A model generated the notes under the pieces. It did no database searches. It saw nothing but the letters and a program-made list of their open reading frames with translations, and was not told where the DNA came from. 43,985 nucleotides of DNA from Clostridia bacterium (lineage in GTDB: Bacteria; Bacillota; Clostridia; Oscillospirales; CAG-272): contig JAFVTS010000026.1 in the NCBI GenBank assembly GCA_017503105.1, positions 1 through 43,985 of the forward strand. The letters run 5' to 3'. This document shows, one piece after another, positions 6,289 through 38,171 of the stretch (within the stretch, counting starts at the first letter, position 1; each line of letters starts with the position of its first letter). The position numbers and the translations under genes are program-made.

Positions 6289-6316
6289 ATTTGTATACTG
6301 TTAAGAGGTGAAGATT

Positions 6317-18561: not shown

Positions 18562-18570
18562 TGCCGAATT

Positions 18571-20247
18571 ATGAAATTGAATATCTTTAAGGGTAAAAGC
18601 ACGAGGACCCGAGTGTTTACGCTTATAACCGTCGGCATTATTCTTGCGGTCCTTTTGCTCAATTACCTTCTTACGTACCTTACGGGTAAGAACGCGCTTT
18701 ACGTCGACCTTACCCCCGAAACATTATACACGCTGAGCGACGAGATGAAGTCCGAATGCGCCTTCGTCGACGAGCTTGACGACGGCGACAAGGAGATAGA
18801 GATCATCTTTTGCGCCGACCCCGACTCCTTGGAGTCCTCGGTTGTAACGAGAGTGCCGTATTTTATGGCGCTTCAGATGCAAAGGGAATACGACAACCTC
18901 TCGGTAAAGACCTTCAACGCGACCTATAATCCCACGGCTCTCTCAAAATATAAAACGACCTCGCTTTCCGAGATCGCGCAGGACGACGTTATTATTTCCT
19001 ACGGTAATACCTACCGTATCGTGTCTGCGGACAGCTTCTGGATGAAGACGAGCGAGGGCTCGTATTTCTCCTATAACGGTGAATACAAAATGGCGTCGCT
19101 CCTTATGTCCGTCACGGCTGTAAACAAGCCCGTTGCCTGCTTTACCAAGGGGCACGGCGAGACGTATTACGCAGACGGAGATCCCTCGTCAAGCTCCGAG
19201 GCTGCGGGCATTTACGACCTGCTCTCCGAGCGTGGATTTGACGTTAAGACCGTCGACCTTTCAAAGGAAGAGCTGCCTGCCGACTGTACTCTCGTTATTA
19301 TAAACAATCCTTTGACGGACTTCGTTTACGACACGGATAAATCGGACGTGTTTGATTACACGTCGGAAACGAAGAAGCTCGACCGTTATCTCCGAGAAAA
19401 GCAGGGTGCTATTATGGTTGCCCGCGATTACGCGAATACCGAGCTTGAAAATCTTGACAGCTTCCTTTACGAATGGGGCTTCGATTTCGGTAACGCCCAG
19501 GTGGCCGACGCGTCGAACCATATAGGAAGCTACGGCGATGACAGCAAAGACGCAGACAAGATCCTCGGCGTTTACAACACCGAAGAGGACAGCTACGCCA
19601 ACGCGGTCTACGGTGAATTTGCCGCTATCACGTCCGCGCCGCACACGGTCTTTGTAAACACGGGCTATATTGAATGCTCCTTCTATGAAACGGACACGAA
19701 ACTTGAGGACGGCTCAAGCAACGTTACCATAACCTACAACCCTTTTATGACCTCTTACAAAACGGCGATAGCAACCAAAATAACCGCCGACGGCACCGAA
19801 ACGGTCAAGAAGGAAGAAGCGCTTGATCTTGCCGCCGTTACGGTAAGATACGCTCTTGACGAGGTTACGAGCGAGGCGGAATATTCTTACGTATTTTGCT
19901 CAAACAGCAAGGACTTTTTCTCAAACGATCTCCTTTACAGCAATTCCTATGCTAACTTCGATATAGTTTCGGCTCTTGTAAATAACATTTCAAGAGTGGA
20001 TCAATACGCCTCTATGGAGCTCGGCGGTTCTTCGATGAACTCGAAGAAGTACGGCGGAAAGCAGCTCGTTTACGACACTTTAAGCGAGACTCCCGCAACG
20101 GTCTACAACCCCGACGCAACGTATAAGGAAACGCTTGAGGCTATTACCCCCGGCGTTAAGAGAACTGCGGTGATAATCGCGGTGATAGCTCCCTTGGTCC
20201 CTCTTACGGCTTGTATCGTTATAAGAATCAAACGTAAATATTTGTAA
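18571..20247 (+). CDS. GldG-like ABC transporter auxiliary protein, copy 2
   Basis: The 558-residue protein repeats the topology of its upstream neighbour: an N-terminal helix (residues ~15-36), a long outer domain and a C-terminal helix (residues ~530-550) ending IRIKRKYL. Shared landmarks are KEIEIIFCADP, GEYKMASLLMSVT followed by ACFTKGHGE, and the LDRYLREKQGAIMVARD segment. Sequence identity looks low outside these, so the duplication is old and the two probably form a heteromer. It begins 10 nt after the first copy with AATGCCGAATT before its ATG, so its ribosome binding site is poor and translational coupling is likely. Confidence 0.83.
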   Translation: MKLNIFKGKSTRTRVFTLITVGIILAVLLLNYLLTYLTGKNALYVDLTPETLYTLSDEMKSECAFVDELDDGDKEIEIIFCADPDSLESSVVTRVPYFMALQMQREYDNLSVKTFNATYNPTALSKYKTTSLSEIAQDDVIISYGNTYRIVSADSFWMKTSEGSYFSYNGEYKMASLLMSVTAVNKPVACFTKGHGETYYADGDPSSSSEAAGIYDLLSERGFDVKTVDLSKEELPADCTLVIINNPLTDFVYDTDKSDVFDYTSETKKLDRYLREKQGAIMVARDYANTELENLDSFLYEWGFDFGNAQVADASNHIGSYGDDSKDADKILGVYNTEEDSYANAVYGEFAAITSAPHTVFVNTGYIECSFYETDTKLEDGSSNVTITYNPFMTSYKTAIATKITADGTETVKKEEALDLAAVTVRYALDEVTSEAEYSYVFCSNSKDFFSNDLLYSNSYANFDIVSALVNNISRVDQYASMELGGSSMNSKKYGGKQLVYDTLSETPATVYNPDATYKETLEAITPGVKRTAVIIAVIAPLVPLTACIVIRIKRKYL

Positions 20248-20257
20248 GGAAAGAAAA

Positions 20258-23200
20258 ATGCAATTTAAAAGAAAAGTAAACAAAACCCGTCGGACGGTCA
20301 TATTTCTGTCCGCTTTAGCGGTGCTGATCGCTCTGCTCACCGTCCTTGCGGTGATCCTGTCGCGCTCCGTGGCGGAGGTCGAGGTGCCGAAAGAAGAGGG
20401 GAAGGTCTTGAAACCGATACGTGAAGAAGAGGGACGGTTCAATTCGTACCCGATCGCGTATCCCCTGATCGATCAGAAGGATATAACTCTCGTCAGTATA
20501 GAAAACGAGAACGGCTCTTACTTTATGGCGATCCCCCCGGACGGCTCGTCCGATTCGTTTGAGTTCTTCTACGAGGTTGACGACGACGGTAATTATGCGT
20601 ATATTGACGAGCAGGGGCGTAAATACGTTTACTACTCCCCCGACATCCTGACCGAAGAGGACGAGATGAGGTACGACGAGCTCTACGCAAAGGTCAAGGG
20701 CGACGGTTACGACAGAATACCTATGCTCACCTATCTGCTTGCGGCGCTCCGCTCTCCTTATTTCGACGACAGAATATACCTTAGCGACGACGCTGCGACG
20801 CGTGAGAGCCAGCTTGCCGCCTACGGCTTCAGTACGGGCACGGCGACCAAGACGCCCGAAGAGGGCGAGGAAGAGTCCAACGCAAAGAAGGGCTATTCAC
20901 AGAAGATAATCAGATTTACCTACACGAAGGAAGACGGCACCGAGGGCTCTTACAAAATAGAAATAGGAAACAATACCGTCACGGGCTCGGGATATTATTT
21001 CAGAGTCTACGACGCCGTATATGACGAAAAGGGCAACGCAGAGTACCGCGCCAGAGATTACCTTTACGTAACGAGAGAGTCGAATTACTTCAAGTACGCT
21101 CTCGTCGGAATAGAGGCATATATCAATCCCATTCTCATCGCGGCAGGTCTTGAAAACGATCAGCACGCCCTTTACGCTCCTTATCTTACCCCCGAATATA
21201 AGCAGTGGAAGACCGAGCTTCACGAGCTTGGAAGCCTTCCCTCCGACAAAGAAGGAATGAAGAACGTCACGGACGTTTTTGCCACGGTCAATACGTGGAG
21301 CCCCATCTTCGTCGCGGACAACGAGGACGTTTCCATTTATAATAATTACGTGAATGATATACTTGGGTCTTATATATTCAATATGACCGAGTATGAGGAT
21401 AACGCGCTTTATTCTTATCTTCTCTCGGCACTCTCCGGCAAAGAGCTCGGAGGCGGCAGCGTTTCGCAGAGCTTGCTTTACGAGAGGGACGTTATGTCGG
21501 GCAAGAAGTACCGTTATTGGATAAAGAGCGTTGACGCCATAATCACGGGCAGCGGCGATAACACCACCGCGGGCGCCACCGTCTCGGAGTTTGGAGCAAG
21601 ATACGTCCGCGTGACGTACGCTCTTGGCGAATGGAACGAGGAAAAGGGCGAGTATGTCCAGGTGGAAAACCTTACCCAGATAATAACGGGTGAGGACGGA
21701 AAGACCGAGCTTAACAAATACGCGACCGATACCTGCGGTATAATAGATCTTAATTACCTTAAAAAGATCGGCGTCGCGGAGGATACCTTAAACAGGCTCA
21801 CAACGGTTGAGAAATTTGAGGTGCCCCTGTTTATCGACGTTACTTACGAAAAGAAGATCGACGGCGTCTCGACGGGTCTTTCATCCAGCAGTATGTCTTA
21901 TTACCTTGACGCGGTGCTCGAGATCTATTCCACGGTGCGTGACGAGGACGGGAACGTAGTTTCTCACACCAAGGCAAGCTCGCTTACCGACACCTCGATA
22001 GTTGCGTTCCGCTATTATTACGTTAAGGACGGAAAGGCTCAGAACGCCAATATCGGCTATATAGATATGCTTTCCGATGAAAACGAAAAGGATCACGAAA
22101 AGCAGTCGAAGATCCGCGCGGCTATCAAGGTTTGGATGAATCTTGAATCGGAACAGGCGATAAACGTTCTTGACGAGAGCGTATACAAAGATATAGTTTC
22201 CGACTATATTCTCTATGAGTTTGAGAATATAAGCGCGTATATCACGGGTGAGCTCATCTCCTCGTTCCGCTTCGTAAACTCCTCGGAGCGCGATCCGTTC
22301 TACGGTGAGTCGTTCTACGAGAGCGCTGACGAGTTTATGCTTTACGCGGTAAACCAGGATTCTTGCGAAAAGGTCACGAAGCTCCTCGGCGGACTTGTGG
22401 AAAGCTCGAGCGTCGACGGACTTACGGGTATAGAAACGGTGGAGCTTGGCGTTACCTTTGCTACTATGAAGAAGTGGGGTTGCACAGCCAACCTTATACA
22501 CTATTCTCTTCCGAGAGATCTCTACGTTTCCGTGGAAACGGCGGAGAACGAGTTCGACGATTACGGGTGGCTGAGGACCCTTGATTTCGTTCTGTACGTC
22601 AGCGATTCCGTCTGGGATCCCGATACGGAATCTTACGTCAGATACGTAGCTTCGGAGATGTATGATATTATAGTAAAGATAAGCGCGGACATGCTTGGCT
22701 TCCTTGATCTTGAAAGGGTCGATTTCTGGGCAAGACGCAACTTCATACTCGTTGACTCCACGTATCTGAAGTCCGTGGGAGTAGAGCTTAAAATGAGCGA
22801 TATCAGCGGCAAGTTCGATCTCTTTATCAGGCACGACGATATAGACGTTGGCTCTGCTACGGATTACGACTTTATGAGAGTCCATCTTGAAAAGATAGAA
22901 GCGAACTTCAGAACGCGCTACGATGAATATCTTGAATATCTCGCCGCGCAGGATTCGAACGCCATAGGACCGTATCTCAGCGACTTTTACGATTATCTCG
23001 CGGGTGAGCAGGTCAGAGAGGATAACGACAGCAAGGGAACGGGAATGTTCAAGGAGTGGCTCCTCGCGCTCTACTTCACAAGCTATTCGGGAACCTTGAC
23101 CGAAGAGGAACAGGCACAGGCAAAAGCGGGCGGGCTCATAATGTCCCTTGACATAATGCTTGACGGTGACAGAATTGCCAAGGACCACGCGGGACTTGAC

Positions 23201-23422
23201 GCGTCCGATTACGCTAACAAGCATTATTACTACAAATTTTACAGATGCGACGACAACCGCGTTATGGTCAGCATATCGAACAACAGATTTGAAGCGGGTT
23301 CGTCAGACTTCTATATTTCCGATTTTGCGTTTAACAAGATCGTTTCGAATTTCATCGGTCTTTTAAACGGTGAAACGCTCGACTCAAACGAGCCGTATCC
23401 CGATTTCAAGCCTCTCGGATGA
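20258..23422 (+). CDS. Very large membrane-anchored exported protein of the Gld-type operon (DUF4340-like)
   Basis: The 1054-residue protein has a single N-terminal anchor (residues ~13-35 after a basic KRKVNKTRR start); everything else lies outside. It is acidic and rich in Tyr, Asp and Glu. Near residue 190-260, a YGFSTGTATKT segment, later KIIRFTYTKEDG and YKIEIGN, followed by SGYYFRVYD, resembles the DUF4340 pattern (YGL-P...G...l-iG...g-YYV). Such proteins follow gldG homologues in many genomes, but they are usually 300-500 residues. The extra ~600 residues have no family I recognise. Its start is 10 nt after the previous gene behind AAGGAAAG. It is the last gene of the operon. The DUF4340 assignment is tentative. 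Confidence 0.72.
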   Translation: MQFKRKVNKTRRTVIFLSALAVLIALLTVLAVILSRSVAEVEVPKEEGKVLKPIREEEGRFNSYPIAYPLIDQKDITLVSIENENGSYFMAIPPDGSSDSFEFFYEVDDDGNYAYIDEQGRKYVYYSPDILTEEDEMRYDELYAKVKGDGYDRIPMLTYLLAALRSPYFDDRIYLSDDAATRESQLAAYGFSTGTATKTPEEGEEESNAKKGYSQKIIRFTYTKEDGTEGSYKIEIGNNTVTGSGYYFRVYDAVYDEKGNAEYRARDYLYVTRESNYFKYALVGIEAYINPILIAAGLENDQHALYAPYLTPEYKQWKTELHELGSLPSDKEGMKNVTDVFATVNTWSPIFVADNEDVSIYNNYVNDILGSYIFNMTEYEDNALYSYLLSALSGKELGGGSVSQSLLYERDVMSGKKYRYWIKSVDAIITGSGDNTTAGATVSEFGARYVRVTYALGEWNEEKGEYVQVENLTQIITGEDGKTELNKYATDTCGIIDLNYLKKIGVAEDTLNRLTTVEKFEVPLFIDVTYEKKIDGVSTGLSSSSMSYYLDAVLEIYSTVRDEDGNVVSHTKASSLTDTSIVAFRYYYVKDGKAQNANIGYIDMLSDENEKDHEKQSKIRAAIKVWMNLESEQAINVLDESVYKDIVSDYILYEFENISAYITGELISSFRFVNSSERDPFYGESFYESADEFMLYAVNQDSCEKVTKLLGGLVESSSVDGLTGIETVELGVTFATMKKWGCTANLIHYSLPRDLYVSVETAENEFDDYGWLRTLDFVLYVSDSVWDPDTESYVRYVASEMYDIIVKISADMLGFLDLERVDFWARRNFILVDSTYLKSVGVELKMSDISGKFDLFIRHDDIDVGSATDYDFMRVHLEKIEANFRTRYDEYLEYLAAQDSNAIGPYLSDFYDYLAGEQVREDNDSKGTGMFKEWLLALYFTSYSGTLTEEEQAQAKAGGLIMSLDIMLDGDRIAKDHAGLDASDYANKHYYYKFYRCDDNRVMVSISNNRFEAGSSDFYISDFAFNKIVSNFIGLLNGETLDSNEPYPDFKPLG

Positions 23423-27139: not shown

Positions 27140-28825
27140 ATGGCAAAAGGAAGAGTTAATACCACGTTACAAAAAGAAGATACAAAGGCGGGGCGTCGAA
27201 GGGTAAACATCATTCTCGTGATAGTTTGTTCGCTTCTTGCGGCGGCACTTATCGCGACGGCGATAGTAATGCTCGTCCTTAATATAAATAAGGAAGAAAA
27301 GCCTTTCGATTACGTGAACGCAGATCTGACCCCATATATCTATATGTCGGCAGAGAATTACAAGGGCTATAAGGGCTATGAGGTTATGATCTCTATAGAC
27401 AGGATCACCGACGAGTCCGTAAAGACAGCCTTGATGCAAGCTCGCGCGGCTAAGCGCGGCGAGGCGAAAACTAACGACAAGGAAACTATGGCGAAGATAG
27501 AGGTTGGCGACGATATACTTCTTTATTTCCAAGGGTACAGCGTTGACGAGCAAGGAAACAAGGGCTCGGCGATAAACGGCCTTGGCAATTTCACCGTTTC
27601 GGACGAGGAAAAAAGAACGTATATGATAGGCGGCGGCTCACTTGATAAGCTTGGACTTAACCTTGAGCTTAAGCTCGTCGGAGAAGACCTTTCGAAATAT
27701 ACTTATTGCGAGATAGTTGACGAGGGCGAGATAAGAGAGAACGACATTCTTTTCGTTACTTACGAAGCGCGCGTGAAGAACGACGGCGAATACAGCCGCC
27801 GCGGAGCGGGGTCCGAGCGTATGAATCTTGCAGACGGCGGCATAGATGACGTGATGGGCGAGGGCTTTACCGAGATGATCCTCGGGCAAAAGATCGGCGT
27901 GGCTGTCGAAAATCCGTCGAAGGTCACTTATAAATCTGACGAGTACGAAACGATAAGATACACTAAAATAAAGGTGGATTACGTCCTGCGCCCGACCGAA
28001 GAAGATCAGGAGCCGCTCAGCATTATGACGACTATACCGTCTTCTTACGAAAACGTCAATTTGCAGGGCACGCTCGTCCTCTTTGAGCTTTACGTAAGAC
28101 ACGCGGTCAAGTACGAGGTGCCCGAGCTTAATGATAAATTTATTCGCGAGGAGCTCGGTGTGAGCGATGAGGTGCTTGAAAAATACGAGGGAAGCAGCAA
28201 TACCGAACGCTTTGCCGCTTACACGAAGGATCTTCTTGAAAAGAAGAATCAAGCGGAAATAGACGCCATACTTATCGAGGCGATGTGGGCGCATTATTAC
28301 AGTATCGCGGAGTTCAAGTCCTTGCCCGAGGACGAGGTAACGCGCCTTATAGAAAAACAGAAGAAGCCGCTTGAAGAGGCTTACACCAAAAACAGCGGGG
28401 ACTATAAGTCGTTTGACGAGTTTGCCCAAGCATACGTTACCGAAAAACTCGGGGTAGAGCTTGTATGGAGCGATTACTTCAGGCAGGTGGCGGAGAGCGA
28501 CGTCAAGGAAAAGCTGATATTCTACTACGTCGCAAGGGCGGAGAAGCTTTTGCCGAGTGATGCGGAGTTTGCCGCACTTGCCGAGAGAGTCAGAAAAGAG
28601 GACCTTGAGTACACCCTTTTTGCAAACGGCATAACGCGCGATAAATACGAAACGGATGCTGAGTACGAGGCAGCGGTCGCGCCGTATCGCGCGGACGTTG
28701 AAAAATACTACGCCGATGAGGAGATCCTTCGTTGGGTGGTACACCGCGAGTACGCAGAGGCGAAAATGAGCAAGCTCGGCGTCGTTAAGTACAAGGAAGC
28801 GGCAAGCCTTCCCGTGGCGCCTTGA
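27140..28825 (+). CDS. Membrane-anchored trigger-factor-like / FKBP-type protein
   Basis: The 561-residue protein has a basic cytoplasmic N-terminus, one membrane anchor (residues ~25-50) and an outer domain. Residues ~115-330 follow the FKBP/trigger-factor PPIase pattern: KIEVGDDILLYFQGYSVDEQ, then a GGGSLDKLG strand, MGEGFTEMILGQKIG (the GFEE-x-L-x-G element) and, after an insertion, TTIPSSYENVNLQGTLVLFE (the V-FP-Y...L-G-x-x-x-F element). From ~335, VPELNDKFIREELGV begins the helical trigger-factor C-terminal arms, ending near SKLGVVKY. This order of PPIase then arms, tethered outside the membrane, suggests an extracytoplasmic foldase, an inference. GGAGG precedes the start. Confidence 0.82.
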   Translation: MAKGRVNTTLQKEDTKAGRRRVNIILVIVCSLLAAALIATAIVMLVLNINKEEKPFDYVNADLTPYIYMSAENYKGYKGYEVMISIDRITDESVKTALMQARAAKRGEAKTNDKETMAKIEVGDDILLYFQGYSVDEQGNKGSAINGLGNFTVSDEEKRTYMIGGGSLDKLGLNLELKLVGEDLSKYTYCEIVDEGEIRENDILFVTYEARVKNDGEYSRRGAGSERMNLADGGIDDVMGEGFTEMILGQKIGVAVENPSKVTYKSDEYETIRYTKIKVDYVLRPTEEDQEPLSIMTTIPSSYENVNLQGTLVLFELYVRHAVKYEVPELNDKFIREELGVSDEVLEKYEGSSNTERFAAYTKDLLEKKNQAEIDAILIEAMWAHYYSIAEFKSLPEDEVTRLIEKQKKPLEEAYTKNSGDYKSFDEFAQAYVTEKLGVELVWSDYFRQVAESDVKEKLIFYYVARAEKLLPSDAEFAALAERVRKEDLEYTLFANGITRDKYETDAEYEAAVAPYRADVEKYYADEEILRWVVHREYAEAKMSKLGVVKYKEAASLPVAP

Positions 28826-28913: not shown

Positions 28914-29852
28914 TCAGGTCTTTCCGTACTCAAAGATACGTACAATCCCCTTTGCCGTCGATGCGGCGACCTCTTCGTCCGAAAGGGCTATGACCTTCTT
29001 GTCGGAATGCTTTTGACAAAGATGTGCCGTGGCTCTTTTTATTTGCGCCCGACCGCCGATAACCACAGTCGCCAGAGGGGAGGAGATAATGGTGTTTATC
29101 TCGTCGGCAAGCACCGCGCCGAGGAAGAAGGAATAGCACTCTTCCTCGCCACGCCCGAAGAGATTTTTGAGTATTCTCGTTTTAAAGAGCGCCTCGTTCA
29201 AGCCGTGCTCATTCGCGTACAAAAATCCGTCATCAAGGGAGGGCGTGTCGAGTTTTTCGCACGAAAGTGACACGGCGTCCTTCAGAATAGTACCCTCTGA
29301 GAGCGCTGCAATCATCTCGCCCGTAAGCGTCGTTGAAAATCGCGTTATTCTGCCCTCTCGGTCAGTATATATCAGCTTGGAATGAGAGCCGGGAAGCACG
29401 AAAACGCACTCTCCGTACGACTCTTCCCGAAGCCCCATAAGCTCCGTTTCCTCGCCGCGCATCATATCGGTCAGCTCAAGCTCGCCCACCGTTTTAACGC
29501 CGCGCACGAAGCTTATCGGAATCTCTGCCACCTCGGGAATAAGGACGCTTTCCATATTCCTCGCAAGCTCGGCAATTCCCGCAGGCGCCGTTATATGAGG
29601 CAGATTTACAAGCCCGAATTCAGATGTTATCATTCCCGAGGCAAGAATGGCGTCAATATCCGAGAGGGAATATCCCGCCTCGGAAAGAAGCTTATCCAAA
29701 GCGGCCTTTAAAGCATTCTTCAGCTCTTCGTTTCCGCCTATACTCTTTTTTGCTCCTGTTGGGATCTTGACGGTGCTTTGAATCTCACCGCCTATGACGA
29801 GTGAGACACGCGTATTGGTCGTGCCTCCGTCTATCGTTACGTATTTTTTCAT
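28914..29852 (-). CDS. dgoK: 2-dehydro-3-deoxygalactonokinase (DgoK family)
   Basis: The ATG at 29852 (312 residues) is chosen because GGAG lies 7 nt before it; an in-frame ATG four codons earlier overlaps that site. The ASKHA-fold phosphate loop is IDGGTTNTR near the N-terminus. Other DgoK landmarks are ILASGMITSEFGL, VLPGSHSKL and a C-terminal VVIGGRAQI. The family phosphorylates 2-keto-3-deoxy-galactonate (or -gluconate) at O-6, feeding the aldolase encoded by the preceding gene. It is the last of eight genes in the operon and is separated from the aldolase by a 79-nt gap holding a hairpin. Confidence 0.9.
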   Translation of the reverse strand: MKKYVTIDGGTTNTRVSLVIGGEIQSTVKIPTGAKKSIGGNEELKNALKAALDKLLSEAGYSLSDIDAILASGMITSEFGLVNLPHITAPAGIAELARNMESVLIPEVAEIPISFVRGVKTVGELELTDMMRGEETELMGLREESYGECVFVLPGSHSKLIYTDREGRITRFSTTLTGEMIAALSEGTILKDAVSLSCEKLDTPSLDDGFLYANEHGLNEALFKTRILKNLFGRGEEECYSFFLGAVLADEINTIISSPLATVVIGGRAQIKRATAHLCQKHSDKKVIALSDEEVAASTAKGIVRIFEYGKT

Positions 29853-29869
29853 AAAAAGCTCCATTCGAA

Positions 29870-29931: not shown

Positions 29932-30582
29932 TTAATTTGACACGGCTGCCACGTAAGCGCGTGCAAGCTCGGTGATCTCTCCATATTTTTCGGCTTTGAT
30001 AAGGTCGCCTTTTACTATTCCCGACCCGATACCGAAGCCCGAGGCGCCCGCCTTCAAAAAGTCCTTCACGTTGCCAAGATCAACTCCGCCAACGGCGAGG
30101 AATTTAATTCCCGAAAGCGGCGCCCTTACCGCCTTTAAATAGGCGGGACCGAGGTCAAGAATGGGGAAAAGCTTGACGAAGTCAGCCCCCGCTCTGTGTG
30201 CCGTCATCGCTTCGGTCGGTGTAAGCGCACCCGGCATAGATACGAGCCCTGCCTCGCGGGTCTTTTTAATTACTCCCTCACAGGTGTCGGGCGAGATGAT
30301 GAACAGACCGCCCGCCTCTTTTACAAGCGCGACCTGACTTTCTTTTGTCACCGTGCCCGCGCCGATGAACATTTTGCCTGACATTGCCGTCGCGAGCATA
30401 GCAATTCTATCAGCTGTTTCCTCGTCGCTTACACTTCCGTCCTGCGAGAACGTTATCTCAAGCAAGCGCACACCCCCCGCGTACATCGCCTCGGCAAGGG
30501 GCACGAGCTTTTCTCTCGGAACGCCTCTTACGATGACGATGAGCTTTTCTTTCGTTACGGATTCTATTACGGCGTTTCTCAT
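29932..30582 (-). CDS. eda: KDPG/KDPGal aldolase (2-dehydro-3-deoxyphosphogluconate/galactonate aldolase)
   Basis: The 216-residue protein is a class I TIM-barrel aldolase of the Eda/DgoA family. The Schiff-base lysine is K137 in GADFVKLFP, with E42 (LLEITF) and R19 (VIVRG) as the other active-site residues; GAGTV, SPDT and FLAVGGV strands are also in place. It cleaves the 6-phosphorylated 2-keto-3-deoxy acid to pyruvate and glyceraldehyde 3-phosphate. It starts one base after the cupin stop. Whether it prefers the gluco or galacto form cannot be read from sequence; the adjacent DgoK suggests galacto. Confidence 0.92.
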   Translation of the reverse strand: MRNAVIESVTKEKLIVIVRGVPREKLVPLAEAMYAGGVRLLEITFSQDGSVSDEETADRIAMLATAMSGKMFIGAGTVTKESQVALVKEAGGLFIISPDTCEGVIKKTREAGLVSMPGALTPTEAMTAHRAGADFVKLFPILDLGPAYLKAVRAPLSGIKFLAVGGVDLGNVKDFLKAGASGFGIGSGIVKGDLIKAEKYGEITELARAYVAAVSN

Positions 30583-30583
30583 A

Positions 30584-30961
30584 TTAAAGCTCTACCTTTA
30601 TCGGCTCGTCAAAGAATACCTTCTCGGAATTGTCAGCGGAGGTGTTGTGATTCTCGACGATAAGGATCTTTGCGTCGGGTGACATTGCCGTTCCGTGCCA
30701 CGTTGCCTTCTTTACGTTGTATATCTTAAACTTTTCCATCTTGTAAACGTTTTTTTCTTCTCCGACGACGAGAGCCGCTTTGCCTTCAAGAAGGACGAAC
30801 ACCTCGTCTGTCAGCATATGGCGCTCGTACTTTGTGATAGCGCTGAGCGCGTCGGCGTAGTTCATAAAAGCAACTCTCCATTCACCGAAGTTCATAGTTG
30901 GCTCGTAGCCCTCACCCGTGTAATCAAAAATTTCAATATCCTTGTTTTCAAATTCTCTCAT
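30584..30961 (-). CDS. Small cupin-fold protein
   Basis: The 125-residue protein is a single-domain cupin. Motif 1 is represented by YERHMLTDEVFVLLEGKAAL (a histidine, an acidic DE pair and a G at the turn), motif 2 by ATWHGTAMSPDAKILIVE with a second histidine. A metal site is likely but has fewer ligands than the usual two His-His-Glu sets. Cupins in sugar-acid operons include isomerases, lactone or keto-acid epimerases and sensors; the role here is unknown. It sits 12 nt after the DUF1116 gene and one base before the aldolase gene. Confidence 0.72.
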   Translation of the reverse strand: MREFENKDIEIFDYTGEGYEPTMNFGEWRVAFMNYADALSAITKYERHMLTDEVFVLLEGKAALVVGEEKNVYKMEKFKIYNVKKATWHGTAMSPDAKILIVENHNTSADNSEKVFFDEPIKVEL

Positions 30962-30973
30962 TTTCGTATCTCC

Positions 30974-32224
30974 TTATTTTTCTGTTTTTCCGTATTTTTC
31001 TTCAAAGGCTTCGCACGCTTCGAGAAAACACTTCATCGGTATTTCGGCGCATCCCGCGCCCATCCAACCGCCGTTTTTGTCTATCATACCGCCGTTGATA
31101 ACGGGAAGAATGCCGCTTTCCTTGACCTTAAAAATATCAATACCCACGGGGGCGTGTGAAAAATTAAGGTTCGGTATCCTGTAATTCTCGTTCTCCGAGG
31201 CACATATCTTACGCATCCTTTCGGTCGTGCGTATTCCGTCCTCAAAGCTCTCGCCGCGGAAGGAGCACACCTTCGGACTTGCCGCGGAAAGAAGACCGCC
31301 AAGTCCCGCGCACTCAACGACGCTGCTGTCGCCGATCCAAGGAAGCTGATTTTCTCTTACCGCGCCCTCGGTCATATAGGTTCCCTCTATCATCGGCGAC
31401 GGTGCCGTGAACCATCTGTCGCCAAGCCCCGAGACCTTGATGCCGTATTCAACGCCGTTGCCGCCCGCAGCCGTCACTATCGGCGAGGCGCTGACGCCGT
31501 GGGCAGCGAGAGTTGCCGTCCTTTGCGCCGATTGGCAGAAGTTGTGGAAGAAGCGGGGCGTTTTCGCAAAATACATAAGAAGCTCAGCTGAGTTCTTGCA
31601 CTTAAGAGCGTAGGGAATTATTTCCCTTATGAAGAGCGCGTCGACGGCGCTCTGGCTCGAATGGTTTTCATCCCCCATCAGAAGCCCGTCTGTAACTATT
31701 TGCTTCAGAGGAATTCCGCCGCACTCTCCGAGCACCTCGGATATGGGTGCGAGAAGCTCGCCGCCTATGTACAAAAGATTTTTCTTGATCTCCTCGGAGT
31801 AAACGCCCCAGCCGCAAAATCCGCCGCCGAATTTGCTCTCGTGCGGAAAAACGCCTGCGCGGATACCCGTTTTTTTATCCTCGCAAACGAGAAGCGGCAC
31901 GGATGCCGAGACTATGCCGACGCCTGAGCCCACGCTGTTAAAATCAAAAGCGCTTTTTATTTTTATCTCGCCGCGAAGTATCATATCCTCGGCGCTCTTT
32001 TCCGTCCTCGCAAGCCCCTCGAAGAGCACCGCGTTTATCATACCTTTTTTGTGGAGCGAGCACATACGCTCGAATTCTATCGGCGGTCCCGAGTGAAGGA
32101 CGGTGCGCTCGTCAAATCCTTCAAGAAAATCTCCCGCGCGTTCGACTCCGACCCAATAAGGCTCGGACTCCGCAATGGCGCGAGCTGATTTCAGAGCCGC
32201 GTTTTCTACGTCTTTTATATTCAT
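30974..32224 (-). CDS. DUF1116 family protein (AllG/YlbE-like)
   Basis: The 416-residue protein shows the landmarks of DUF1116: VLHSGPPIEFERM, an EGLA segment, NSVGSGVGIVSASVPLLV, DGLLMGDENHSSQSAVDALF and the FFHNFCQSA segment. In E. coli the DUF1116 protein YlbE (AllG) is one of three proteins (with FdrA/AllF and AllH) of oxamate carbamoyltransferase. Neither an FdrA-like nor a DUF2877 partner is encoded here, so that activity is unlikely as such. Its ATG overlaps the stop of the upstream flavoprotein gene by 4 nt (ATGA), so the two should be made in a fixed ratio and may form a complex. Function unknown. Confidence 0.82.
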   Translation of the reverse strand: MNIKDVENAALKSARAIAESEPYWVGVERAGDFLEGFDERTVLHSGPPIEFERMCSLHKKGMINAVLFEGLARTEKSAEDMILRGEIKIKSAFDFNSVGSGVGIVSASVPLLVCEDKKTGIRAGVFPHESKFGGGFCGWGVYSEEIKKNLLYIGGELLAPISEVLGECGGIPLKQIVTDGLLMGDENHSSQSAVDALFIREIIPYALKCKNSAELLMYFAKTPRFFHNFCQSAQRTATLAAHGVSASPIVTAAGGNGVEYGIKVSGLGDRWFTAPSPMIEGTYMTEGAVRENQLPWIGDSSVVECAGLGGLLSAASPKVCSFRGESFEDGIRTTERMRKICASENENYRIPNLNFSHAPVGIDIFKVKESGILPVINGGMIDKNGGWMGAGCAEIPMKCFLEACEAFEEKYGKTEK

Positions 32225-33756
32225 CTTATCACCTGCCTTTTCGTAGTCGTATCTCCGTTTTCTTTTTTCAGAATTATACTGTACCGCTCGCCGGATCCAT
32301 CGGTACAGTCCTCTCTTATGTGTGAGCCGACGCTATCGGTCCTCGCAAGAGCCGCGGTTATAACGAGCTTAACCGTCAGGGCGTCGTTGTAAAGGCGAAG
32401 CGCGTTGAAAGAGTTTTTGACGCTAAGTGAGCTTCGTATCACGCCCCCTACGCACTCTGCCGCTTTTCGCAGAGCATCGCCGCTTTTAATAACACCGAGC
32501 GTATTTTTACAAATGCCGTCAAGCAAAGCTCTTTGAGCGCTTGTGTCAAACGGCACGTCTTTTGCGTCGCAAAGCTCGGGAAAACCGTCCGAGGTGGCAC
32601 CCGTGTTGAGTTTTTCGTCAAGAAAGCGCACGATACTTTTCCCTGCAATATCACCGAAAACGAGCACCTCAAGTCCGGCGTTGCCGCCAAGACGGTTTGC
32701 TCCGTGAACACCTCCTGCCGCCTCCCCCGCGGCAAAGAGTCCCACAAGGCAGGTCTTACACTCGCTGTCGATCTTTATTCCGCCCATAGTCGTGTGCGGT
32801 GCGGGCGTGATCTCGACGGGCGTCCGTCTTATATCTATACCGCATTTTTCATACCGTTCAAAGTAGTCGCGGTATTTACCGAGCAGCATTTCCTCGGGCA
32901 CGCCCGTCATATCGTAATAAACGCCTCCCGTCTTTGTGGCACCGCCGCGAAGAATCTCACGGTATATTCCTGCGGAAAGCGCGTCTTTTCCCACTCGCTC
33001 GTCCATAAATCGCTCGCCGTTTTTATTTCTTATAACGGCACCCTCGAAGAGCATAGTGGTGATTATGCTCTTTCCTGCGACCGCCCTCGGGGCGGTCGCG
33101 ACGGTCGGCTCGTATTGGATAAATTCCATATCCACGAGCTCGGCTCCCGCGTCGTACGCCATCGCCGCACCGTCCCCTCCTATATCGGGGGAGTTCGTGG
33201 AGAAGGGGAAAATTCCTCCGAATCCGCCCGACGCGATAAGAACGGATTTCGCAAAAACGGAGAAATGCGTTCCCGTCTTTCTGTCAAAGAGGCGCGCGCC
33301 TACGACGCTCTCGCCGTCTTTTATGAGCCCGAGCGCGCGAGTTTTCTCAAGCTCCTTATATTTCTTTCCCAAGATAAGCTCACGCAGTATTTTAGCACCC
33401 GTCCTGCCTCCGATTCCCGCAACGCGAGGAACGCTTGAGCCAAGCGGCTTTAAAAGGTCGTAACCGCCGTCCTCTTTTTTGTCAAAATCGCAAGAAAATT
33501 CCTCTCTTACGCCGAAGGCGCCGCTTACCAAAGTCTGTGCAAGCAGAGGGTCGTTTTGATATTTACCGCTCTTCAGCGTATCGCTGAGGAAAAGCTCCCT
33601 TGAATCTTCTTCAAGCAGGGGCACGTTAAGTCCGTGTATGTATGGAGATGCTCCCGCGCCGTCCGATACGAGAGTGACGGAATATTTTTCAGCGATTATC
33701 GCCGCTGCGCGTCTTGCGGTGATCCCTCCGCCTATGATAAGAACGTCCGAGGTCAT
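32221..33756 (-). CDS. Fumarate reductase/succinate dehydrogenase-like flavoprotein
   Basis: I chose the ATG at 33756 (511 residues), which overlaps the dehydratase stop as TAATG; an upstream TTG is less likely. FAD_binding_2/FrdA-type landmarks are the N-terminal dinucleotide motif VLIIGGG, ASGGFGG, NSPDIGGDG, the acceptor-domain GERFMDERVGKDALSAGI, PAPHTTMGGIKID, then FAAGEAAGGVHGANRLGGNA. In SdhA, FrdA and NadB the catalytic acid is the Arg of an (A/G)-x-RD motif; here the aligned residue looks like Lys (VGKD). That suggests an altered substrate or reaction. No iron-sulfur or membrane-anchor subunit is encoded nearby. It may oxidise or reduce a sugar-acid intermediate, which is inference. 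Confidence 0.85.
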   Translation of the reverse strand: MTSDVLIIGGGITARRAAAIIAEKYSVTLVSDGAGASPYIHGLNVPLLEEDSRELFLSDTLKSGKYQNDPLLAQTLVSGAFGVREEFSCDFDKKEDGGYDLLKPLGSSVPRVAGIGGRTGAKILRELILGKKYKELEKTRALGLIKDGESVVGARLFDRKTGTHFSVFAKSVLIASGGFGGIFPFSTNSPDIGGDGAAMAYDAGAELVDMEFIQYEPTVATAPRAVAGKSIITTMLFEGAVIRNKNGERFMDERVGKDALSAGIYREILRGGATKTGGVYYDMTGVPEEMLLGKYRDYFERYEKCGIDIRRTPVEITPAPHTTMGGIKIDSECKTCLVGLFAAGEAAGGVHGANRLGGNAGLEVLVFGDIAGKSIVRFLDEKLNTGATSDGFPELCDAKDVPFDTSAQRALLDGICKNTLGVIKSGDALRKAAECVGGVIRSSLSVKNSFNALRLYNDALTVKLVITAALARTDSVGSHIREDCTDGSGERYSIILKKENGDTTTKRQVIR

Positions 33757-35426
33757 TATCTTTCCCAAATGCCGCCCTTTGCCATAGAGCCGACGTTCTT
33801 TACGAAGAGGTTCAAATATCTCGGATAATCGTTCTTCGGGAATACCCAGGAGAATTCCGCCGCGCGCTTCGCTATCTCCTCGTCGGACACGCGCATATTT
33901 ATCTTTCTTTCATTTATATCAACGTCGACTATGTCGCCGTTTTTGATAAGACCGATGGGACCGACCAAAGCCGCCTCGGGAGAAACGTAGCCTATGCTGA
34001 GTCCCGACGTGCCGCCCGAAAATCTTCCGTCCGTGATTATCGCGCACGAGTTGTAAAGCTCGGGAATGCCCTTGAGCTCCTCTTGGAACGTGAACGCCGT
34101 CGTGCCGAAACGCCCCTTGAGTCCCATAAAGCGGAGCACGAGCGCGTCCCCCGGCTTTACCTCGCCCGAGCGCAGGGAGCGAAGTCCCTCGTCAAGGCTG
34201 TCAAAGACCCTCGCCGTGCCCGTAAACTTCATAAGATGCTCGGGAACCGCCGCGATCTTGATTATAGCTCCCTCGGGGGCGAGATTGCCGTAAAGCACGC
34301 CGATTCCGGGTGCTCGCATAACGGGATTGTCGAGGGTTCTTATAACGTCGGTGTCAAATACGGGCGCGCCCGCCACGTTCTCGGCAAGCGTGTTGCCCGT
34401 AACCGTCAGGCACGAGCCGTCAAGCTTCGGCATAAGGTTGTTAAGAAGGGGCGAAAGACCTCCCGCGAGGTCAAGGTCCTTTAAGCTGTAAGGACCGCCG
34501 GGGGCAAGGTGCGACATAAGAGGGATCTCGTTTGACGCCTCGTCGAAATATTTCCACCACGGCAGGTCGTATTCCGCTTCGTGAGCTATCGCGGGAATAT
34601 GAAGTATGAGGTTTGAAGAGCCCGCGACTGCCATATCTACCTTTATCGCGTTCTTTATCGCCTCGGGAGTCATTATTTTTCTCGCGGTTATTCCGTTTGC
34701 AACAAGGTTCATTATCTGCTTGCCTGCGCGGTACGCGATGTTCGAGAGCTTCGGGCTTACCGCGGACGCGGTAGAGTTGCCAGGGAGCGACATTCCGAGA
34801 GCCTCCGCTATAATACACATACTGTTTGCGGTCGTCATAGAAGTACAGCCGCCGCACATTCCCCAAGAATTTTCGATAAGTCCGTTGTACTCGTCCATAT
34901 CCATCTTGCCCTCTTTCGCGGTACCGACCTTGTCCTGCGCGTGGATGTGAAGGACCTCCTTGCCCCTGAACTGACCGAGGGGCATATATCCGCCCGTGAC
35001 GACGATAGTGGGAATATCGAGTCTTGCCGCCGCCATAAGATGCCCGGGAACGATGGAGTCGCAGGTGGAGAGCATTACCATACCGTCAAAGAAGTTGCCC
35101 TCGACGGTGATCTCGACCTGATCGGCGATGGAGTTTCTTGACGGGATCTCTACGTACTTCGGGTCCTTTAAAACCATTCCGTCGCATATGCCCGTCGTCA
35201 TCACCTCAACGGGAAAGCCGCCCGCCTCCCTTACGCCCTGCTTGACTCTTTCCGCGAGAGCTTTAAGGTGAATATGCCCGGGGTTGTATTCGTTCCACGA
35301 GTTTATTATTCCTATGAGCGGTCTGTTTTGTTCTTCGGGAGTAATTCCCATACCGCAAAGAAGTCCGCGCCTGCACTCGGATGCCTCGCCGAATTCCCAA
35401 CGGCTTCTTAAATTCTTGAACTGCAT
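33756..35426 (-). CDS. IlvD/Edd family sugar-acid dehydratase
   Basis: The ATG at 35426 (556 residues) follows GGGAGG at the right distance. It is an iron-sulfur dehydratase: cluster ligands are probably C122 (STCDSIVPGH), C194 (MCGGCTSMTTANSM) and C81 (GICDGM). The C-terminal domain has ITDGRFSGGTSG, the signature that holds the substrate and catalytic serine. The family includes dihydroxy-acid dehydratase and the dehydratases of gluconate, galactonate, xylonate and arabonate. Surrounded by sugar-acid genes and no ilv genes, it most likely makes a 2-keto-3-deoxy acid. The next gene begins within its stop codon. Confidence 0.9.
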   Translation of the reverse strand: MQFKNLRSRWEFGEASECRRGLLCGMGITPEEQNRPLIGIINSWNEYNPGHIHLKALAERVKQGVREAGGFPVEVMTTGICDGMVLKDPKYVEIPSRNSIADQVEITVEGNFFDGMVMLSTCDSIVPGHLMAAARLDIPTIVVTGGYMPLGQFRGKEVLHIHAQDKVGTAKEGKMDMDEYNGLIENSWGMCGGCTSMTTANSMCIIAEALGMSLPGNSTASAVSPKLSNIAYRAGKQIMNLVANGITARKIMTPEAIKNAIKVDMAVAGSSNLILHIPAIAHEAEYDLPWWKYFDEASNEIPLMSHLAPGGPYSLKDLDLAGGLSPLLNNLMPKLDGSCLTVTGNTLAENVAGAPVFDTDVIRTLDNPVMRAPGIGVLYGNLAPEGAIIKIAAVPEHLMKFTGTARVFDSLDEGLRSLRSGEVKPGDALVLRFMGLKGRFGTTAFTFQEELKGIPELYNSCAIITDGRFSGGTSGLSIGYVSPEAALVGPIGLIKNGDIVDVDINERKINMRVSDEEIAKRAAEFSWVFPKNDYPRYLNLFVKNVGSMAKGGIWER

Positions 35427-35443
35427 TTTGTCGCCTCCCAAAA

Positions 35444-36229
35444 TTAAAATTCGAAGTTCATACTTTCAATAGATCCGTCGATGGACTGACCGCCGTCAAC
35501 GAAAATGGTCTGACCTACTATGAATTTAGACTTTTCGTGATCGGCAAGGAAGAGTATCATTGGAACTATATCGTCCGTAGTGCCGCCGTTTCCGTAAGGT
35601 ATCTTTCTTGAGAAGGATGCAAGGTCCTTTTCCGAGTAACGCTCAGCAAGCTTCGTGAAAATAAGACCGGGAGCTATGCCGTTTACGTTGATGCCGTACT
35701 TTGCTACCTCAACTCCGAGCGCCTTGGTGAACATATTAAGACCGCCCTTGCCCGCAGAGTAGGGAAGCATCTTGCGGCGCACCCACGTTACACTGCTGTG
35801 AATTGACGAGATGTTGATTATCTTGCCCTTAGTGCCTTTCTCTATCATATCCGCAACGGCGTAGCGCGAGCAGTACGCCGCGGAATTAAGGTTCAAGTCT
35901 ATCTGAGAGTCCCAATATTCCATAGGCATATCCTTGAACTCTCCCTCGGGAATCTTAAGAGCGCCGCCTGCGTTGTTGACGAGCACGTCTATCTTGCCGA
36001 AGGTCTTTATGAAATCCTCAACCATATTCTTGCAGTTGTCGTGGTCGCAAACGTCAGCGATGTATACCTTCGTCTTTACGCCGAACGCCTCGCATTTTTC
36101 AGCGACCTCGTACGCGCCCTCGGGGTTCTTGTTGCAGTTGATGCCGACGTTGCAGCCTTCCTTTGCGAAAGCTATGGCCGCTGCCGCTCCTATTCCGTGG
36201 GATGAGCCTGTGATAAGTACGTTTCTCAT
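35444..36229 (-). CDS. Short-chain dehydrogenase/reductase (putative sugar dehydrogenase)
   Basis: The ATG at 36229 (261 residues) follows AAGAGGAG; upstream in-frame ATGs lie before that site. It is a classical SDR: TGSSHGIG (7-14), NNAG (85-88), catalytic S141/S142, Y157 and K161 (YSAGK), and a C-terminal GQTIFVDGG. The residue after beta-2 is Asn (INCNKN), not a clear Asp or Arg, so the NAD/NADP preference is open. In this operon it fits the first step, oxidation of an aldose to its lactone, comparable to galactose or glucose 1-dehydrogenases. It begins 42 nt after the hydrolase gene. Confidence 0.9.
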   Translation of the reverse strand: MRNVLITGSSHGIGAAAAIAFAKEGCNVGINCNKNPEGAYEVAEKCEAFGVKTKVYIADVCDHDNCKNMVEDFIKTFGKIDVLVNNAGGALKIPEGEFKDMPMEYWDSQIDLNLNSAAYCSRYAVADMIEKGTKGKIINISSIHSSVTWVRRKMLPYSAGKGGLNMFTKALGVEVAKYGINVNGIAPGLIFTKLAERYSEKDLASFSRKIPYGNGGTTDDIVPMILFLADHEKSKFIVGQTIFVDGGQSIDGSIESMNFEF

Positions 36230-36271
36230 TTCTGTTTTCTCCTCTTGTTTCATCGTCAAATGTTTGTTTTC

Positions 36272-37138
36272 TTATATTCCGAGTCTTTTTCTGTGCTCCG
36301 TTACCGTGTAAAGCGGCAGGAAGAGCTTTTCGGGCATACCGCACCCGACTTCGTTTATAAGCCTTACGGCTATTTCTGCGTCGTCGGTCATACCTTCCTT
36401 TACGTACGACGCGATGAGTGCTCCGTATTTTTCCGTCAGCTCGGAGCAAAACGCGAGCGCGCGCTTTACTTTTTCTTTTCCGATTATGAAGTCTCCGAGC
36501 CCGTCGTACTCGTGACCGAGAATTATGTTTTCCACGTCGAGCGCCGAGAGCTTTTTCAAGCTTTGCTCGTAATCGTCAAGGCTCTGATAGAAGCCTATGC
36601 CCTGCGTCGGCGTGCCGCCGCCTTGAAGAGAATCGCCCGTGATGACGGTTTTCGTCGGAATGTCGTACCAGCAAACGCAGTCTGTATCGTGCCCCGGGGT
36701 GGAGATAAGCTTCAAGCGCCCCTCGAGAATATCGCCGTCCTGCAATATCACGTCGGGGTCAACACCCTTGAGCCAGCTTTGCGGAGCGGGGCTGTGCTCG
36801 GGGAAGCGCGTTCTTATTCTGACGGCGTTTGACGCAGGGTCGGTAAGCGCTCCAACACCGCCCGCGTACGTCGCGACCTTAAGGCCGTATTTGCTCACAA
36901 GGTCGAAGTGTCCCGTTATGTGATCGCCGTGGCAGTGTGTGTTCAGCAGATAATCGATATCCGTAATATCAACTCCGAGCTTTTTGAGCGCGGGGATGAC
37001 GTATACCTCGGGTGCGTCAGCCCCCGAATCAATGAGAAAATTCTTTTCCCCCCTGACGAGCGTTACGCCCGTCCAAACGATGGAAAAGGGAGCCTTCATC
37101 ACGAAAACGTCTTTTACTACTTCTTTGAATTCGTACAT
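36272..37138 (-). CDS. Metallo-beta-lactamase-fold hydrolase (putative lactonase)
   Basis: The ATG at 37138 (288 residues) follows GAGGAAAGGG. The zinc motif H68-x-H70-x-D72-H73 (THCHGDH) is complete, with further ligands in TPGHDTD, ITGDSLQ and ILGHEYD. The fold covers lactonases, glyoxalases II and many other hydrolases. As the first gene of an operon that encodes a sugar dehydrogenase and a sugar-acid dehydratase but no SMP-30 or other lactonase, opening of the aldonolactone is the most economical role. That is inference from context. Confidence 0.85.
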   Translation of the reverse strand: MYEFKEVVKDVFVMKAPFSIVWTGVTLVRGEKNFLIDSGADAPEVYVIPALKKLGVDITDIDYLLNTHCHGDHITGHFDLVSKYGLKVATYAGGVGALTDPASNAVRIRTRFPEHSPAPQSWLKGVDPDVILQDGDILEGRLKLISTPGHDTDCVCWYDIPTKTVITGDSLQGGGTPTQGIGFYQSLDDYEQSLKKLSALDVENIILGHEYDGLGDFIIGKEKVKRALAFCSELTEKYGALIASYVKEGMTDDAEIAVRLINEVGCGMPEKLFLPLYTVTEHRKRLGI

Positions 37139-37171
37139 TTTTACCCTTTCCTCGGCCCTTGCGTTTTTTCC

Positions 37172-37200
37172 ATTATAGCACATTTCTTTCTTTGTGTAAA
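37172..37200 (-). promoter_or_regulatory. Promoter of the sugar-acid operon
   Basis: On the minus strand TTTACA (37200-37195), 17 bp, TATAAT (37177-37172). The transcript would start near 37165, ~27 nt before the first ATG. No other promoter is evident within the eight genes. Confidence 0.85.
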
Positions 37201-37259: not shown

Positions 37260-37297
37260 ATATTGATTATATACTCAATTTATGCTATAATCAATAT
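37260..37297 (+). promoter_or_regulatory. AraC-gene promoter within a perfect inverted repeat
   Basis: TTGATT (37263-37268), 17 bp, TATAAT (37286-37291) with extended TGC. ATATTGATTATA (37260-37271) is the exact complement of TATAATCAATAT (37286-37297), with 14 bp between arms, so each arm carries one promoter hexamer. This is a strong candidate operator for autoregulation and for control of the divergent operon whose -35 lies 60 bp away. Confidence 0.8.
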
Positions 37298-37343
37298 ACA
37301 AAACAGGCGAAAATTTGCACAAAACAGACTTTTTGGAGGAAGA

Positions 37344-38171
37344 ATGAGAATAGAAGATATAAGCGCTCGGATAAGATTTGCCGACAGATTTGAATACACC
37401 TGCTCAAGACCGCTTTCAAAAACCTACGATTCAAGGCTTCTTTATATCACGGGCGGAGAGGGGAATATAAGCGTTGGCGGGAGATACGTCAGAGCAGAGA
37501 AGGGAATGCTGATAGCGTTTCAGGGTGGGACGCCGTATAAGATCGAACCGTGCCCATCATTTTCGGCCTTTGCGGTGGATTTTGACCTTTGCGAGGGGTA
37601 TAAGTGCGAGGGATTTCTTTTTCCCGTACTCACGGAGCTTTTTGACGAAGAAAAGCTTCATAAGCGCGTGTATTTCGAAAACAGTGATTTTCTCGCCGTT
37701 CCGTTTGCCGAGCACGTCCATAGCGGAATAGAAGAGGATATACGCAGACTCGTCGAGGAATATAATTCAGGCAGGACGTTTTCTGGGAGAAGAGCGGAGC
37801 TTATTCTGAACGGTGTCTTTTTAGAGCTTGCCGACTCGCTCACGCTGCGGACCAAGGGCGCAAAATGTGCCAAACGCGTTTGCGATTATATATCCGAGCA
37901 TTACCGTGAGCCCCTGTCGAACGAGTCCGTAGCGCGAGCCTTCGGGCACGAGCCGTGTTACCTTAACAGAACGGTAAAACTTAACACGGGTATGCCCATT
38001 CATAAGCTTTTGACAAAAAAACGAGTGGACGAGGGGGTGAAGCTTTTGCTCACTACCGACCTTTCTCTTGAGCAAATTGCCGAGCGCGTCGGATTTTGTA
38101 CAGCTTCTCACTTTTCAAAAAGGTGCAAGGACGTCACGGGAAATATGCCCTCGTTTTACAGAAAGCACTGA
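37344..38171 (+). CDS. AraC-family transcriptional regulator
   Basis: The ATG at 37344 (275 residues) follows TTTGGAGGA; an in-frame ATG 27 codons upstream falls in the promoter. The N-terminal ~150 residues are a cupin-like sensor (with GNISVGGRYVRAEKGMLIAF and FSAFAVDFDL). The C-terminal ~100 residues are the double helix-turn-helix of AraC proteins: SNESVARAFGHEPCYLNRTV for the first and LEQIAERVGFCTASHFSKRC for the second, ending TGNMPSFYRKH. It is divergent from the sugar-acid operon, so a sugar or sugar-acid responsive activator of that operon is likely. Confidence 0.92.
   Translation: MRIEDISARIRFADRFEYTCSRPLSKTYDSRLLYITGGEGNISVGGRYVRAEKGMLIAFQGGTPYKIEPCPSFSAFAVDFDLCEGYKCEGFLFPVLTELFDEEKLHKRVYFENSDFLAVPFAEHVHSGIEEDIRRLVEEYNSGRTFSGRRAELILNGVFLELADSLTLRTKGAKCAKRVCDYISEHYREPLSNESVARAFGHEPCYLNRTVKLNTGMPIHKLLTKKRVDEGVKLLLTTDLSLEQIAERVGFCTASHFSKRCKDVTGNMPSFYRKH

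Follow-up and report, generated by a model that had tools for sequence, protein, structure and literature searches.

Introduction

AllG (YlbE, domain family DUF1116) is one of the subunits of oxamic transcarbamylase (OXTCase), in which it is joined by AllF (FdrA) and AllH (YlbF), next to the carbamate kinase AllK. This activity, earlier the subject of a genomic prediction (PMC3364942), is reported to convert oxalurate and phosphate into carbamoyl phosphate and oxamate (PMC11326118), and the genes allFGHK are described as present in nitrifiers (PMC12625717). We have investigated a stretch of 43,985 nucleotides from a Clostridia bacterium (GenBank assembly GCA_017503105.1, contig JAFVTS010000026.1), hereafter the window, in which the gene of an AllG protein overlaps that of a FAD-dependent dehydrogenase-like flavoprotein (FP). 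The window AllG is homologous over nearly its whole length to three canonical AllG proteins (35-39% identity), and homologues of FdrA and AllH are also present in its relatives. Unlike the OXTCase genes, however, it lies in a sugar-acid operon, FdrA and AllH were not found in the window genome, and the relatives carry a kinase of the acetate kinase family instead of carbamate kinase. We conclude that the FP-AllG pair belongs to a widespread sugar-acid module, of which it represents the form without FdrA.

Two sugar pathways offer themselves for comparison. In the De Ley-Doudoroff pathway of galactonate, an IlvD-type dehydratase is followed by a DGOK kinase and a KDPGal-type aldolase; the window operon possesses all three, but this pathway has no role for the FP-AllG pair. 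The other is the non-phosphorylative Route III for L-rhamnose, L-fucose and pentoses, reported to make 2,4-diketo acids which a FAH-family enzyme hydrolyses to pyruvate and lactate or glycolate (PMC6336799; PMC11199699). The window operon resembles the published outline of this route in its putative aldose dehydrogenase and lactonase and its dehydratase, after which we propose an oxidation and the cleavage of a C-C bond, giving pyruvate and a hydroxy acid (PMC6336799), whereas it differs in having a flavoprotein and AllG instead of a NAD-dependent short-chain dehydrogenase (SDR) and a hydrolase, and in the proposed use of phosphate and formation of ATP by the full form.

The FP-AllG pair in the window genome

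The two genes of the pair are:

30974..32224, minus strand: AllG/DUF1116 protein, 416 aa, FdrA-less type without N-terminal cap segment (PF06545, 175.9 bits, cut-off 27)
32221..33756, minus strand: FAD-dependent dehydrogenase-like protein (FP), 511 aa, fumarate-reductase/NadB superfamily, catalytic Arg absent (FAD_binding_2 PF00890, 175.5 bits)

The FP open reading frame (ORF) starts at 33756 with an ATG and terminates at 32221, while that of AllG extends from 32224 to 30974, with a 4-nt ATGA overlap (junction AGATGAAT). The original prediction, which placed this pair between a dehydratase and an aldolase, was correct as to coordinates, strand and overlap, although a cupin-like ORF lies between AllG and the aldolase. 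It had also remarked that FdrA, AllH and carbamate kinase are missing at the pair, and held that finding them elsewhere in the genome, co-regulated with AllG, would speak against a new enzyme. We looked for them, and none above cut-off was found anywhere in the window genome (G000; 96.5% complete, 44 contigs). In particular, two different FdrA queries (L091/L145, which are one protein, and L031) gave no match, whereas the same searches were positive in 8/10 genomes with L031 and in 7/14 genomes with L145. Likewise, no match to AllH (PF11392) was obtained, the E. coli control being positive, and carbamate kinase (TIGR00746) gave two weak partial matches, neither above cut-off. A tblastn search of the window detected no remnant of FdrA, the best matches having E values of only 0.8-0.9; the idea that the pair is a remnant accompanied by an FdrA fragment was rejected on this basis. 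AllG is present in a single copy, and the two acetate kinases found in this genome are of the R/D types, unlike the K/E-type acetate-kinase-like protein (AckL) of the relatives described below. The window has the FP-AllG pair only, lacking both FdrA and the AckL partner.

Gene content of related loci

Genomes matching the window AllG amount to 60 of 398 in a phylum sample and 8 of 196 in a family sample, and AllG occurs in 24 of 391 genomes of a class sample (window genome included in each case). No match was obtained in the four other listed genomes of the window's genus. All seven other matching family genomes (L088-L094) display the order FP-FdrA-AllG, to which the window is the exception. 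Related loci were then collected in two surveys: 42 stretches were annotated in the first, while the second consists of the best 80 of 100 relatives from one scan of genome contigs, found with two peptide patterns. We refer to the 60 loci that group around the window AllG (L118-L178 without L176) as sugar-acid loci. Nearly all loci come from metagenome-assembled genomes with mechanically called ORFs, AllH matches are weak by sequence, and the counts are not independent, as some contigs of the second survey repeat the first (L121, for example, corresponds to L034) and one genome contributes both L133 and L177.

The gene directly upstream of AllG in the 60 sugar-acid loci is FdrA in 50 cases and FP in eight (L118-L122, L133, L153 and L173), while in two the contig ends. 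FP is encoded on 42 of the 50 FdrA-containing stretches. In many of them, though not in all, it immediately precedes FdrA, whereas several stretches from Verrucomicrobiota and Lentisphaerota have it in a divergent row. Three of the eight FdrA-containing loci without FP on the stretch were checked, and FP was found elsewhere in the genomes of L151 and L141 but not in that of L130. Among loci with at least 1.5 kb of sequence downstream, AckL is found in 36/48 with FdrA vs 0/7 without (Fisher p 0.00025, kinship ignored), and AllH in 26/48 vs 0/7, respectively. In the 34 FdrA-containing loci with full context, the metallo-beta-lactamase-fold (MBL) hydrolase, SDR, IlvD and FP are present in 32 each, AckL in 26 and AllH in 22, with some variation in gene order. 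Carbamate kinase does not occur in any of the 60 sugar-acid loci. The pattern is different in the 20 other loci, eight of which have carbamate kinase and none AckL, IlvD and FP being found in L176 only, a member of the sister clade formed with L035 and L036. Oligosphaera ethanolica DSM 24202 (L208, L209, L210) has two versions of the module, i.e., a compact cluster (FP-FdrA-AllG-SDR-MBL-IlvD) and a split one, with MBL-SDR-IlvD-FP at one place and FdrA-AllG-AckL at another.

These surveys modify the idea, contained in the original prediction, that DUF1116 was recruited, with the flavoprotein as partner, to a different transfer reaction on a sugar-derived acid. The sugar-acid operon and the neighbouring flavoprotein hold, and FP directly followed by AllG, with no intervening FdrA, recurs in eight further loci. 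Recruitment in the absence of FdrA and AllH is not supported, given that the commoner form has FdrA (50/60 loci) and, in 26/48 loci, AllH; the proposed neighbourhood survey of DUF1116 proteins lacking FdrA recovers the pair in related genomes, where its absence would have counted against the prediction, but as a form that we read as secondary loss (see below).

Some further AllG and FdrA loci were encountered. Plasmid records with AllG relatives number 193 (34.5-35.2% identity among the ten matches listed), and the two loci inspected are FdrA loci with carbamate kinase; 417 plasmid records match FP (30-35% identity among the ten listed). A gene for a ring-opening amidohydrolase adjoins AllG in the FdrA-AllG loci L108, L095, L097 and L102, three of these four stretches carrying carbamate kinase. 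Frames of approximately 1000 aa matching FdrA or AllG in L038, L044 and L045 resemble FdrA-AllG fusions. Finally, a protein of 719/699 aa is common to L119 (883-3042) and L121 (2222-4321), beside FdrA-less modules; the L119 copy has marginal GH76/GH127 matches and the L121 copy no Pfam match.

Loss of FdrA and evolution of AllG

A conserved stretch of approximately 32 residues, the cap, forms the beginning of most FdrA-linked AllG proteins or lies ahead of them. It is found upstream of AllG in 50/50 FdrA-containing sugar-acid loci and in 13/13 other loci with FdrA upstream, and is absent there from the window and from 8/8 FdrA-less loci, as well as from L190, L194, L195 and L197, whose AllG has no FdrA directly upstream. 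In L031, which is also listed as L131, the cap is located at the C-terminus of FdrA instead. The cap HMM was built from eight segments partly taken from the counted loci, so that some of the positives are built in, while the absences are not. Coming and going with FdrA, the cap is likely to be a site of contact between FdrA and AllG.

Searches for FdrA were negative in the window genome and in those of L118, L119, L120, L121, L122 and L173, i.e., in 7/9 FdrA-less genomes, with 5/5 FdrA-containing controls positive. As for the other two, the L153 genome gave only a 27% partial match, and that of L133 has FdrA in a second, fuller module (L177). This last case, together with the incomplete state of the window genome, is what could be said for an FdrA acting in trans or missed in metagenome-assembled genomes, which would make the pair an ordinary FdrA-AllG enzyme with a displaced subunit. 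Considering the seven negative genomes, the poor match in L153 and the absence of the FdrA-linked cap in 9/9 cases, we judge this explanation very unlikely.

The nine FdrA-less rows require at least two changes in the trees. The window groups with L118-L121 (support 100/99) in the tree built by a careful method on 52 of the 80 rows, while L133, L153 and L173 fall inside FdrA-containing rows (support 96) in the full 80-row tree, obtained with a quick method. A single origin of the FdrA-less state was rejected (approximately unbiased test, p 0.0008; 0% of 200 bootstrap trees), with the caveat of long branches, which are flagged in 6/9 FdrA-less rows (L120, L121, L122, L133, L153 and the window). 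The trees count changes and not their direction; we take the direction to be loss, given that FdrA is present in the sister rows (L035, L036 and L176). The window form is thus best read as a secondary loss of FdrA, a state which has arisen at least twice.

AllG has evolved differently in the FdrA-less rows. Relative to IlvD of the same operon, its divergence is 2.11-fold in the 10 pairs formed by the window and L118-L121 (range 1.49-2.59), compared with 1.10-fold in 164 FdrA-containing pairs of similar IlvD identity (0.48-1.54), while that of FP is little changed (2.72 vs 2.45). On the other hand, purifying constraint acts on the window AllG, which differs from L118 by 0.28/0.20/0.67 at codon positions 1/2/3, and 36 of 44 near-invariant columns are kept in all nine FdrA-less rows. 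H44, E69, D185, H188, N256, D299, S300, E304 and D363 are retained throughout. At C301, where at least 53/54 FdrA-linked rows of the sugar-acid and sister groups have Cys, all nine have Ser; R190, invariant when AllG is linked to FdrA, is replaced by Ser in four of the nine, including the window.

Alternatively, the window AllG could be a relic, or a structural helper that stabilises or regulates the flavoprotein, with the flux passing through the 2-keto-3-deoxy-acid kinase and the KDPG aldolase as in a De Ley-Doudoroff-type pathway. The genes for SDR, lactonase-like protein, IlvD, DGOK and KDPG-type aldolase are indeed all in the window, and the near doubling of AllG divergence after the loss of FdrA and the replacement of the invariant Arg in 4/9 rows are in line with this explanation. 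The purifying selection and the retained columns argue against it, as does the lack of a KDPG aldolase homologue on the fetched stretches of L119, L120 and L153, where the pair may be the sole outlet. Overall, we consider a relic or helper rather unlikely, though a good deal less so than a displaced FdrA.

The acetate-kinase-like protein

The gene of about 400 aa that follows AllG in the relatives, AckL, matches the Pfam acetate kinase family with 339 bits and, among solved structures, acetate kinase 1tuu with 260 bits and the probable propionate kinase 7fj7 with 293.6 bits. Three positions, numbered from the alignment with 1tuu and presumably belonging to the active site or substrate pocket, differ from solved acetate kinases in all 40 AckL proteins: R91 is replaced by K (40/40), D148 by E (40/40) and the pocket residue L122 by a small residue (A in 33, V in 5, T in 1 and S in 1).

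The nature of this kinase bears on the possibility that the substrate of the module is a sugar acid carrying a carbamoyl or ureido group, AllG having kept carbamoyl transfer. The homology of AllG, and of FdrA in the relatives, to OXTCase subunits would be accounted for in this way; however, a carbamate kinase homologue is found in 0/60 loci and none above cut-off in the window genome, and a kinase of the acetate kinase family takes its place in the relatives. Carbamoyl transfer is consequently the least probable of the explanations considered here.

Neighbouring genes provide hints about the product. The gene row of L162 comprises AllG, aldolase, PfkB kinase, AckL, AllH, a LarA-type racemase, EtfB, EtfA and a FAD-linked LctD/GlcD-type dehydrogenase, and L167 has the same row without a LarA match. 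Such a row fits lactate as the product and hence a 6-deoxyhexose as the substrate. A HpcH/HpaI aldolase is present in L126, and aldose epimerase, PfkB, ROK and GH43 genes are found near modules (98 of 237 listed neighbours scanned, from 292). Given these mixed hints, we claim no sugar identity.

The flavoprotein

FP has the FAD domain of fumarate reductase and L-aspartate oxidase, along with their PAxHT..GG and GANR-like motifs; among proteins of solved structure, a subunit A of succinate dehydrogenase and L-aspartate oxidases come closest to it in sequence. It stays under cut-off in all 25 of the 29 NCBIfam matches that were listed. Unlike those enzymes, it does not have the Arg of the RGEGG-type segment, which we take to be catalytic in the fumarate reductase family: the segment mostly reads TTM/L..EGA, and Arg occurs in 0/52 FP rows, while the His and the GANR-like motif remain in the variants displayed. 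Furthermore, neither an iron-sulphur nor a haem partner is seen in the operon by Pfam. A role as fumarate reductase was rejected on account of the missing Arg.

The window operon and the proposed pathway

The pair is part of a minus-strand row (MBL-fold hydrolase, SDR, IlvD, FP, AllG, cupin-like ORF, aldolase, kinase) with a divergent regulator:

36272..37183, minus strand: MBL-fold hydrolase, probable sugar lactonase, a role inferred from context (PF00753, 97.9 bits)
35444..36232, minus strand: SDR, aldose dehydrogenase or keto-acid dehydrogenase (PF13561, 184.3 bits)
33756..35429, minus strand: IlvD/EDD-type sugar-acid dehydratase (PF00920, 354.8 bits; PF24877, 181.4 bits; under NCBIfam cut-offs)
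30584..30961, minus strand: cupin-like protein, 125 aa, cupin by eye, no Pfam or NCBIfam match, between AllG and aldolase
29932..30582, minus strand: KDPG/2-dehydro-3-deoxy-phosphogalactonate-type aldolase (PF01081, 114.8 bits; best NCBIfam NF006600, under cut-off)
28914..29864, minus strand: 2-keto-3-deoxy-galactonokinase family kinase (DGOK PF05035, 138.6 bits; no NCBIfam match)
37263..38171, plus strand: AraC-family regulator, divergent (PF12833, 63.8 bits)

The IlvD and FP genes overlap by one base (TAATG). SDR, MBL fold and IlvD are thus found together, as families assigned by Pfam; DGOK, Aldolase and ILVD_EDD exceed the Pfam cut-offs without reaching those of NCBIfam equivalogs. An MBL homologue is present in 44/60 sugar-acid loci, the cupin-like ORF also follows AllG directly in the FdrA-less loci L118, L120 and L133, and in L119 and L120, which share this cluster with the window, homologues of the AraC regulator are likewise oriented divergently next to the module. 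Pfam found no FAH-family hydrolase in the ten proteins scanned from the operon and its surroundings, the rest of the genome not being searched.

From this gene content we infer a pathway, including the assignment of SDR and FP to their respective oxidations. The SDR, as aldose dehydrogenase, and the MBL-fold lactonase would yield an aldonate, which IlvD would convert into a 2-keto-3-deoxy acid; FP would then probably oxidise the latter to a 2,4-diketo-3-deoxy acid. In the full module, FdrA-AllG, with AllH where present, would use phosphate to split this compound, giving pyruvate and, depending on the sugar, lactoyl, glycoloyl or glyceroyl phosphate; from this acyl phosphate AckL would form ATP and the free acid, making the whole a phosphorolytic Route III. 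The proposal relies on our own chemical argument that oxalurate and acylpyruvate are isosteric: with CH2 for NH and alkyl for amino, oxalurate would correspond to the acylpyruvate, oxamate to pyruvate, carbamoyl phosphate to the acyl phosphate and carbamate kinase to an acetate-type kinase. Together with the gene content of the relatives, the changed kinase and the joint absence of FdrA, AckL, AllH and the cap, this leads us to rate phosphorolytic cleavage of a 2,4-diketo-3-deoxy sugar acid by the full module, with ATP made by the kinase, as an evenly balanced proposition. In the window, the acylpyruvate site may persist in AllG, with water as acceptor of the acyl group, beside the kinase/aldolase arm. 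An acylpyruvate hydrolase is the simplest reading that leaves AllG active, and we put it forward tentatively. Of the acyl or carboxyl transfer suggested by the original prediction, carboxyl transfer finds no support, while acyl transfer to phosphate (with FdrA) or to water (without it) fits better.

Several observations weigh against this pathway. A known 4-dehydrogenase is described as a NAD-dependent SDR (PMC11199699), so that the SDR may perform that oxidation and the flavoprotein another. AckL is not within reach in 12/48 FdrA-containing loci, whereas KDPG aldolase homologues (33/60 loci) and PfkB-type kinases are frequent neighbours, and there the keto-deoxy acid may have another fate. 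The window itself holds a complete kinase/aldolase arm, which does not need the pair. The loss of R190 is unfavourable as well, and the faster evolution of AllG could represent decay rather than a hydrolase role; a fold search with AllG gave no functional relative. Finally, the lactate hint comes from two related loci, with LarA in one of them, and GH43 neighbours (upstream in L162) point to pentoses.

Taking these points together, we propose with some reserve, and somewhat less confidently than phosphorolysis as such, that FdrA-AllG-AllH is an acylpyruvate phosphorylase, cleaving a C-C bond with phosphate without thiamine diphosphate or coenzyme A and gaining extra ATP through a dedicated acetate-kinase paralogue, and that the window possibly represents its reduction to an FdrA-free, flavoprotein-coupled acylpyruvate hydrolase. 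If so, the DUF1116/FdrA/DUF2877 family would gain a second, carbon-based role, chemically analogous to its one assayed reaction, and gut and digester anaerobes would have an energy-conserving version of Route III and a novel type of C-C bond phosphorolysis. Lineages without FdrA would be a natural experiment on AllG acting alone. Among the open-access papers listed in our search, by titles and abstract openings, none gives a sugar-acid role to DUF1116, oxamate carbamoyltransferase or fdrA/ylbE/DUF2877/AllG, subscription papers and preprints being outside this search.

Other genes of the window

Three large ORFs (525, 558 and 1054 aa) occupy positions 16984-23422 of the window, two of them with weak PF09822 ABC-auxiliary matches under cut-off. 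A 561-aa protein encoded at 27140-28825 has a weak trigger-factor match, also under cut-off, and a lone sulphite/nitrite-reductase-like protein at 6308-7246 adjoins a CmpB-type ABC protein.

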